Part shown: one piece after another, positions 14,035 to 16,090 of the stretch
Numbering within the stretch: the stretch's first letter is position 1
Layout of the letters: every line of letters starts with the position of its first letter
Assembly (NCBI RefSeq): GCF_003609605.1
Contig: NZ_MCHY01000009.1
Coordinates: forward strand, 427,058 to 491,057
Direction: 5' to 3'
DNA from: Ammoniphilus oxalaticus
Lineage (GTDB): Bacteria > Bacillota > Bacilli > Aneurinibacillales > RAOX-1
Length of the DNA stretch: 64,000 bases
Notes under the pieces: model-generated
Database searches by the model: none
The model's input: only the letters and a program-made list of their open reading frames with translations
Told to the model about the DNA's origin: nothing
Translations under genes and position numbers: made by a program

Positions 14035-14172
14035 ATCAATCACCTATTCGTTTAGATTACAACGCATTACTATATACAATGTCTGAAGATATAAAAGCGT
14101 TCGAACCACCGCAAAATTGAAAGTTGCGCTACTATTGTTTAATGTATTAACTAGTTTTGGGGGGATGTTGAA

Positions 14173-14628
14173 ATTGAAATTCAATCTGAGAATGATATTT
14201 ATTTAGCCTTGAGCGCAGTTCGAAAGCTGATGGAAAGGCTTTCGTTTTCAGAGTTAGATAAACAAAAGGTGTTAGTCAGCGTCTCCGAGTTAGCCCGGAA
14301 TGTGTTGGTTCACGCCAATGGACAAGGGTTTATTGAAAGCAAAATTTTAAAAGATAGCTTATGTATTACTGTGGTTGATCAGGGCCCCGGGATATTAAAC
14401 ATTGAAGAAATTCTTCGATGCGCGGAAGTTAAATCAGAAACAGGATTAGGCCTTGGCTTAAACGGCGTCAAACGATTGATGGATGAGTTCTACGTTGAAA
14501 CGGGAGAAGGAGGTACGAAGATCATTGCCGTCAAATGGAGAGGATCTTCTCGAGGAGTCGAGAGAAACAGATCAAACGCTAGGTCGACTAGCATCGATCG
14601 GTCAAATTTCGGCGGGTATCGCCCATGA
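14173..14628 (+). CDS. RsbT-like serine/threonine kinase (GHKL anti-sigma type)
   Basis: Homologous to RsbT, the switch kinase of the sigma-B stressosome. The N box SELARNVLVHANGQG, the DQGPGI motif, the GLGLGL loop and VKRLMDEF are all present. The matching N-terminal residues (EIQSENDIYLALSAVRKL) extend upstream of the first ordinary start (TTG 14209) to about 14167. No ATG, GTG or TTG exists there in frame: the frame opens at 14155 and the nearby ATG 14165 is out of frame. An ATT at 14173 lies 8 bases after a GGGGGG site and is the best candidate. The true domain ends near 14550, and the tail overlaps the kinase gene. A one-base sequence error near 14166 is an alternative. Confidence 0.75.
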   Translation: MEIQSENDIYLALSAVRKLMERLSFSELDKQKVLVSVSELARNVLVHANGQGFIESKILKDSLCITVVDQGPGILNIEEILRCAEVKSETGLGLGLNGVKRLMDEFYVETGEGGTKIIAVKWRGSSRGVERNRSNARSTSIDRSNFGGYRP

Positions 14629-16090
14629 AGTAAAAAATCCGTTAACATCTGTCAAAGGATTTCTTCAGTTACTGCAGGAGGAGCAACAACATTCGTTTTT
14701 AGATATGGCCGCATCCGAGTTGGATCGAGCCCTAGACACATTAGAGAACTTGCTTCATGTTTCAAAGCCGGACTTAGATAATGAAGCGTACACCTCCATT
14801 CATGTATGCGCCGAATTGGAATCGATCATTTATTTATTTCAAGATCAACTGTATCGCGTCCAAGTAAAAACCGATTTTGAAAACACCAATGAAATTATTT
14901 TGGGACAAAGAAATCAATTGAAGAAAGCTTTCTTTAATTTATTAAAAAATGCGTTCGAAGCAATCGCCGAGGAAGGCCAGATTATCATTGGGCATCGTCG
15001 AATTGGAAATCGCATCCTCGTTACGATTGAAGATTCCGGGGCGGGTGTCCCAGAGGAAAAAATGGAGATGCTGGGAACGCCCTTTTATACGACGAAAGAA
15101 AATGGAACAGGCATGGGACTAGCTCAAGTCTTTTCTACGATTTATCAACATGGCGCCACAATCGATGTTGAAAGCTATGAAGGGAGAGGAACCAAGTTTA
15201 TGATACAGTTTCCTGTTGTCCTAAATGGGGAAATTGAACCGAGAGAATTGGACCTGCCTTATGAAGAAGGTCAATCCTTTGAGCAGTATTTGGAAGCGAA
15301 TCGCGAGCAGTTTAAATCGTTACTACTTCAAGAGGCGATGACGATTTTTCAGCGTGTAGAGGAGGCAGAAACTCTCGACCAAGAAGATCTGCTAAGTACG
15401 GCGACGAGCTTAAAGAGATATGTGATTCAAGGGTTGCAACACGAAGTGATCGTGATGGCGAAAAGCCATGGGAGAAATTGGGCTAAAAATGGGTTGCCGC
15501 TTATTTTAAAATTAGAGTGGATCCAATCGTTTCGAAAGGTTTTCTCCGATTTCGCCTACACCTTTTACAAGCGAACGAGCCCGGAATTAGATTCGGTATT
15601 AAAGATGGAAAGACAAACGACGTACATTCTTGATCATTTTATTAATCACTACATTGCGAGTTTCACTGAATATAACAAAGACGTGTTGCGCTCCCATCGT
15701 GAACTAATTGATGAGCTTAGCGTGCCGGTCATTCTATTAACGCCATCTTTGGGTGTGTTGCCGATTGTAGGGACAATCGATACTTACCGCGCGAAACAAA
15801 TTCAGGAACGCGTCTTGGCGCAGATCGAATCGCTCAAAATTAGCAGAATGATCGTCGATTTATCCGGCGTCGCGTACATGGATACGGCTGTCGTGAGTCA
15901 TTTGTTTCAAATCATCGAGGGACTAGCATTGTTAGGGTGTGAGGCTGTCGTGACGGGGATACGCTCCGAGATCGCGAATACGATCATTGATCTCGGTGTG
16001 AGGCTGACCGACAAAATCCATATTCAAGGCACATTGCAACAGGCTCTTGACAAGTTTGGATTAAAAGTAACGTATACAAATGACATATAA
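14525..16090 (+). CDS. Hybrid histidine kinase with C-terminal RsbR-like and STAS domains
   Basis: One continuous frame joins two normally separate modules. Residues about 20-240 are a cytoplasmic histidine kinase: H box IAHEVKNPLTSVKG, N box NLLKNAFEAI, G1 DSGAGVP and G2 GTGMGLAQV. Residues about 250-395 resemble the helical N-terminal part of RsbR-type proteins. Residues 400-520 form a STAS domain (VGTIDTYRAKQIQ..DLSGVAYMDTAVVSHLFQ). Start TTG 14525 has GGAGGT 10 bases upstream; ATG 14483 is also possible. It overlaps the RsbT-like gene by about 100 bases. No membrane helix or response regulator is adjacent. It probably links phosphorylation to stressosome-style partner switching (inference). 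Confidence 0.85.
   Translation: MPSNGEDLLEESRETDQTLGRLASIGQISAGIAHEVKNPLTSVKGFLQLLQEEQQHSFLDMAASELDRALDTLENLLHVSKPDLDNEAYTSIHVCAELESIIYLFQDQLYRVQVKTDFENTNEIILGQRNQLKKAFFNLLKNAFEAIAEEGQIIIGHRRIGNRILVTIEDSGAGVPEEKMEMLGTPFYTTKENGTGMGLAQVFSTIYQHGATIDVESYEGRGTKFMIQFPVVLNGEIEPRELDLPYEEGQSFEQYLEANREQFKSLLLQEAMTIFQRVEEAETLDQEDLLSTATSLKRYVIQGLQHEVIVMAKSHGRNWAKNGLPLILKLEWIQSFRKVFSDFAYTFYKRTSPELDSVLKMERQTTYILDHFINHYIASFTEYNKDVLRSHRELIDELSVPVILLTPSLGVLPIVGTIDTYRAKQIQERVLAQIESLKISRMIVDLSGVAYMDTAVVSHLFQIIEGLALLGCEAVVTGIRSEIANTIIDLGVRLTDKIHIQGTLQQALDKFGLKVTYTNDI

Follow-up and report, generated by a model that had tools for sequence, protein, structure and literature searches.

The window analysed here, a stretch of 64,000 nucleotides from Ammoniphilus oxalaticus, carries on its forward strand an rsbT-like gene that overlaps a second gene, which encodes a histidine kinase and an RsbR-type protein in one chain (the HK-RsbR fusion). 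Comparison at the level of sequence establishes this architecture, the conserved linkage of the two genes, the co-occurrence of RsbT with the phosphorylatable threonines, the retention of the kinase core and the independence of the pair from RsbU. The explanation towards which we lean is that the two genes form a module that places a histidine kinase under the control of a stressosome-type Ser/Thr switch kinase, the histidine kinase probably feeding the Spo0A phosphorelay.

The overlapping rsbT and fusion genes

The rsbT-like switch kinase gene spans positions 14173–14628 of the forward strand, with an uncertain start at either ATT 14173 or TTG 14209. Its frame is open up to the stop at 14628, and the product carries the motifs SELARN, DQGPGI, GLGLGL and VKRLMDEF, matches HATPase_c_2 in Pfam (2e-11) and has the intact N, G1 and G2 boxes that make up the ATP site of a stressosome RsbT kinase. 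By BLAST, it is 39% identical to a canonical RsbT from a sigB operon (1e-26) and more distant from RsbW and SpoIIAB (28–33%, about 1e-8), while it shares 42–56% identity with the full-length RsbT proteins that adjoin other fusions. Between 14152 and 14209, no in-frame ATG, GTG or TTG lies upstream of the TTG at 14209, which corresponds to residue 13 of the conserved fold, so that the gene may either start at a rare ATT or be N-terminally short. The best ATT candidate, 14173, is located 8 nt downstream of GGGGGG and fits the conserved N-terminus, but the assignment is uncertain.

The fusion gene occupies 14525–16090 on the same strand and encodes 521 aa. Its likely start is TTG 14525 with AAGGAGG 11 nt upstream; the frame also contains an upstream ATG at 14483. 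From TTG 14525 to the rsbT stop at 14628 the two genes overlap by 104 nt, in agreement with a preliminary description of an RsbT-like GHKL frame that runs about 100 bases into a second frame. In related pairs the overlap is mostly 23–38 nt; it is longer in the window because the local rsbT frame runs on to a stop further downstream, the last 29 residues of RsbT, after IAVKW, being read-on into the frame of the fusion gene. In most relatives, the fusion likewise starts at a TTG or GTG that lies inside the 3' end of rsbT and is preceded by a Shine-Dalgarno sequence, and the rsbT stop follows 23–38 nt later; a programmed frameshift into one protein is therefore not supported as an explanation of the overlap. 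The fusion of genome G001, which has no adjoining rsbT, begins with LTTNG after a Shine-Dalgarno sequence, an arrangement that looks like a leftover of the rsbT-overlap layout.

The N-terminal half of the fusion is a histidine kinase by its H, N, G1 and G2 boxes, all of which are present. A HisKA domain (14600–14773, forward strand; Pfam 6e-14) contains the phospho-acceptor His48 of the protein (P0002) within HEVKNPLT and is followed by a HATPase_c catalytic domain (14906–15217, forward strand; 8e-21) with N, G1, F and G2 boxes. At the C-terminal end lies an RsbR-type STAS domain (15740–16045, forward strand; 1.9e-16), which together with the preceding helix matches RsbR and YtvA as its best relatives. 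Two threonines of P0002 correspond by motif to the residues T171 and T205 at which B. subtilis RsbRA is phosphorylated (PMC3944199), namely Thr434 (15782–15784, forward strand; motif GxxDT-R-AK) and Thr468 (15884–15886, forward strand; motif DT). The region between kinase and STAS (15239–15715, forward strand) is predicted to form an RsbR-like all-helical N-domain with a long signalling helix. It gave no Pfam match above the cut-off in the window fusion, and RsbRD_N matches in the relatives were weak and below the cut-off.

In a fold search with the whole protein, the best matches were all to histidine kinases, and the C-terminal half was therefore modelled separately by AlphaFold (pLDDT 82, pTM 0.54). 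In the model, a helical domain is followed by a long helix and then by STAS; the best solved match was the whole-length Listeria RsbR 7b0u (273 columns, E 6e-10). The global TM is low (0.39) although the alignment spans both domains, as would be expected if the two domains sit at another mutual orientation. The C-terminal half thus has both features of an RsbR co-antagonist, a STAS domain with a T171-type threonine and a helical N-domain, the latter as a moderate-confidence model with a low TM. The previously noted combination of histidine-kinase core, RsbR-like region and STAS in one protein is borne out by these matches. With a highest hydropathy of 1.98 over a 19-residue window, the fusion protein is read as soluble.

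Distribution of the fusion and its association with rsbT

A scan of the genome collection gave no matches with a single-protein query and did give matches with an alignment query. In all, 44 HK-RsbR fusions were collected from separate assemblies of about 25 families of Bacilli; hosts named in the scan include Brevibacillus, Cohnella, Paenibacillus, Neobacillus, Heyndrickxia and Alicyclobacillus. A sequencing or assembly error that joined two genes, which separate kinase and STAS proteins in related strains would have indicated, is thereby refuted, and we regard it as practically excluded. The few split relatives are broken copies: in G217 (L097:1370-4606) a transposase gene separates the kinase half from the RsbR half, and the copy of G204 is interrupted by frame breaks.

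An rsbT gene lies directly upstream of 21 fusions, and when the flanking genes were clustered, no neighbour other than rsbT recurred at the fusion loci, whether response regulator, RsbS, RsbU or phosphatase. Among the neighbours that the preliminary description had suggested might be conserved, rsbT is thus confirmed, and rsbS and rsbU are not. The fusion thus has no recurrent cognate response regulator gene beside it of the kind expected for a two-component kinase; spo0A lies upstream of the rsbT-fusion pair in a single genus (g28; loci L029:5900-9436 and L207:3865-11634). The gene order there is spoIVB-spo0A-rsbT-fusion in G054 and also in G294, which has an IS21-like element between spo0A and rsbT. 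The loci vary in further respects. In G026 (L034:8690-9540) the pair is preceded by an additional RsbR gene with a broken frame, and Neobacillus sp. PS3-12 (L133:1596-5548) has two divergent fusions, of which one is accompanied by rsbT and the other is not. The fusions of L115 and L116 have about 100 additional N-terminal residues, which are weakly PAS-like in L115.

The presence of rsbT was compared with the state of the two phosphosites in 42 fusions placed on a tree, 21 with and 21 without an adjacent rsbT. Where rsbT was adjacent, the equivalent of Thr434 (site 1) was Thr in 21 of 21 fusions and that of Thr468 (site 2) in 20; Thr (or Ser) occupied both sites in 20/21 of these fusions and in 3/21 of those that lack an adjacent rsbT. 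Site 1 was also kept in eight further loci with rsbT (L127 being counted as a repeat of L087). The remaining 18 fusions without rsbT have lost one or both threonines, and the divergence of the rsbT-less fusions is concentrated at positions 434–442 and 467–475, around both phosphosites; the kinase core as a whole and the structural columns of STAS are maintained in them. Every fusion whose sequence extends to the phospho-acceptor histidine has this residue, L139 being a broken copy. The three fusions that have both threonines without an adjacent rsbT belong to G001, G047 and G010, and each of these genomes carries a stand-alone RsbT gene elsewhere, far from any sigB operon (L237:5404-5853, L238:4849-5358 and L239:5128-5526; 51%, 53% and 42% identity in G001, G047 and G010).

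Two cases are imperfect: L034 has an adjacent rsbT and a Lys at site 2, and L098 retains both threonines beside a broken rsbT. G176, with RsbT and no threonines, was rejected as a counterexample, its only RsbT being located in a sigB operon. On the tree there are several losses and few label changes, and the association between rsbT and the threonines is clustered. An independent-pairs test had 1–2 informative pairs, which almost without exception agreed with the expectation, and was not significant; with so few informative pairs, we take the pattern as strong concordance and not as a claim of significance.

These data also bear on whether the STAS half might be a passive dimerisation or scaffold part of an ordinary orphan histidine kinase, with the adjoining RsbT a historical remnant. 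At least 18 fusions lacking rsbT and having altered threonines would fit this. However, the overlapping order of rsbT and fusion has been maintained over many families, the threonines and their surrounding surface are kept together with rsbT, and all three exceptions carry rsbT elsewhere in the genome, which makes a passive STAS half highly improbable.

Direction of control and possible outputs

In B. subtilis, RsbT acts through binding to the RsbU_N domain (PMC9237108). Among the 22 genomes with an rsbT-fusion pair, RsbU_N was absent in 16 and present in six, the A. oxalaticus genome included. In most pair-carrying genomes RsbT therefore needs another output, and its genetic partner is a histidine kinase. 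As the kinase core is always kept, the threonines disappear without rsbT and RsbU_N is mostly missing, RsbT and RsbR are likelier to control the kinase than the reverse. The preliminary description of a hybrid signal module holds insofar as RsbT accompanies a true HK-RsbR fusion with no response regulator beside it in the window, but the direction it proposed, from the kinase to a partner-switching protein, is doubtful on the same three grounds.

In the mechanism that we propose, RsbT would bind to the RsbR part at the C-terminus of the fusion, where it would phosphorylate Thr434 (and Thr468). Occupancy or phosphorylation of RsbR would alter the helices that link it to the DHp-catalytic core of the same protein, so that autophosphorylation of His48 would rise or fall. 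A response regulator whose gene lies elsewhere would then receive the phosphate; the likeliest recipient is the Spo0F/Spo0A sporulation phosphorelay. Binding and phosphorylation by RsbT, the sign of the effect, the stimulus to which the RsbR N-domain responds and the choice of regulator are all inferred. The only direct hint of a link to Spo0A is the adjacency of spo0A, known in one genus only, together with the orphan status of the kinase and the kinase type. KinB and KinD are among the kinases that the core resembles, but AtoS and ZraS match it better, so that the Spo0A phosphorelay is a putative output. The presence of Spo0A in fusion hosts was discarded as an enrichment argument, as most sampled Bacilli have Spo0A with or without the fusion.

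The main alternative is that RsbT is the output. The fusion would then be a sensor that sequesters RsbT, a one-protein stressosome without RsbS, and stress would free RsbT to act through RsbU on SigB. The A. oxalaticus genome offers the components for this: about 340 kb from the window it carries rsbV-rsbW-sigB-rsbU (G000:C9:81.8-84.5 kb), and its RsbU contains RsbU_N. The window itself lacks a PP2C phosphatase, RsbV and RsbW, as noted before; all three exist elsewhere in the genome. A STAS search of this genome detected SpoIIAA, RsbV, the fusion and a protein of SulP size and no RsbS, whereas the same search did find RsbS-like genes in G052 and G010; in G033 the searches gave no RsbV, RsbW, RsbU_N or RsbS-like match, just the sporulation set and unrelated proteins. 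No RsbX, the phosphatase for the threonines, was identified, which weighs against the proposed mechanism. The RsbT-like gene that follows rsbU (L044:8679-9083; G000:C9, about 84.7–85.1 kb) is degenerate and has no N, G1 or G2 motifs, its product being possibly a kinase-dead RsbU-binding protein, so that no intact RsbT other than that of the window was found in this genome. Moreover, G001, from the same family, lacks both the rsbT-fusion linkage and RsbU_N, as predicted if RsbT serves RsbU, and this pattern counts against control of the kinase by RsbT. The absence of RsbU_N from 16 of the 22 genomes and the persistence of the kinase core in fusions that have lost rsbT and the threonines nevertheless render RsbT as the output unlikely; the window RsbT could also activate RsbU, and the RsbU branch may be a second one.

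Elsewhere, G002 has a similar degenerate RsbT-like gene (L047:8539-8928), and A. oxalaticus encodes a stand-alone RsbR-like paralogue of 318 aa (L007:1447-2400), whose gene precedes an msrA/msrB-like gene and whose STAS domain is weakened and lacks the phosphothreonine motif.

Control might also run both ways, with the kinase signal changing the grip of RsbR on RsbT and RsbT in turn modifying the kinase. Such a junction would couple a SigB-type output and the phosphorelay where RsbU exists and serve the phosphorelay alone where it does not; both output sets are present in six of the 22 genomes, including that of A. oxalaticus. It needs more assumptions than necessary, and we consider it distinctly unlikely.

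Under our preferred reading, control of the kinase by RsbT, the pair may, more tentatively, represent a module that is widespread among spore-forming Bacilli and appears not to have been described. In it, RsbT would directly gate a histidine kinase via an RsbR of the same chain, and partner switching would thus reach the Spo0A phosphorelay with no need of RsbS, RsbU or SigB. If true, Ser-Thr switching by STAS and RsbT and His-Asp phosphotransfer, which are usually apart, would be linked within one polypeptide; RsbT would gain an RsbU-independent output in lineages without RsbU; and stress would have a direct input to sporulation. The relatives that lost rsbT along with the phosphothreonines would then be natural controls, and the two-gene form would be self-contained.

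Relation to known signalling systems

Among the open-access papers searched, none described a kinase-RsbR fusion with RsbT alone. A close counterpart for its parts is the B. subtilis RsbRST stressosome, with which it shares the RsbT motifs and the RsbR-type N-domain and STAS with both phosphorylatable threonines (PMC3944199). Here, however, RsbR is fused behind a histidine kinase, the genome has no RsbS, rsbU and sigB are located at another locus, and RsbU_N is missing from most genomes with the pair.

The previous statement that stressosomes use no histidine kinase was too strong. In Vibrio and other Proteobacteria, rsbRSTX clusters adjoin HisKA/REC proteins encoded by separate genes, and action of RsbT on a downstream sensor kinase has been proposed there, with no RsbU (PMC9237108). 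These clusters resemble the present pair in tying stressosome proteins to two-component signalling in the absence of RsbU; they differ in having kinase and RsbR as separate proteins together with RsbS and RsbX, whereas here there is one chain, with RsbT only.

With the orphan sporulation kinases of the KinA-KinE type, the fusion shares a soluble HisKA-HATPase core with HE[VI][KR]NPLT, no linked response regulator and hosts with Spo0A, which it adjoins in one genus. Those kinases have an N-terminal PAS input, in contrast to the C-terminal RsbR half that would serve as input in the fusion. YtvA (LOV-STAS) likewise joins an RsbR-family STAS to another signalling domain, but the attached domain is a sensor and not a kinase, and engineered LOV-histidine kinases are artificial chimeras without STAS. 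The hybrid kinase RsbK of B. cereus, which acts via the regulator/phosphatase RsbY, similarly ties a histidine kinase to general stress control; neither RsbT nor STAS is known to be involved. Phosphotransfer from RsbK to RsbY has been reported (PMC9912610). As it lacks the single-STAS scaffold RsbS, which builds a 1.8 MDa complex with RsbR in the stressosome, the rsbT-fusion pair does not belong to the stressosome family proper; by analogy, it would bring the input of a stressosome to bear on a histidine kinase.
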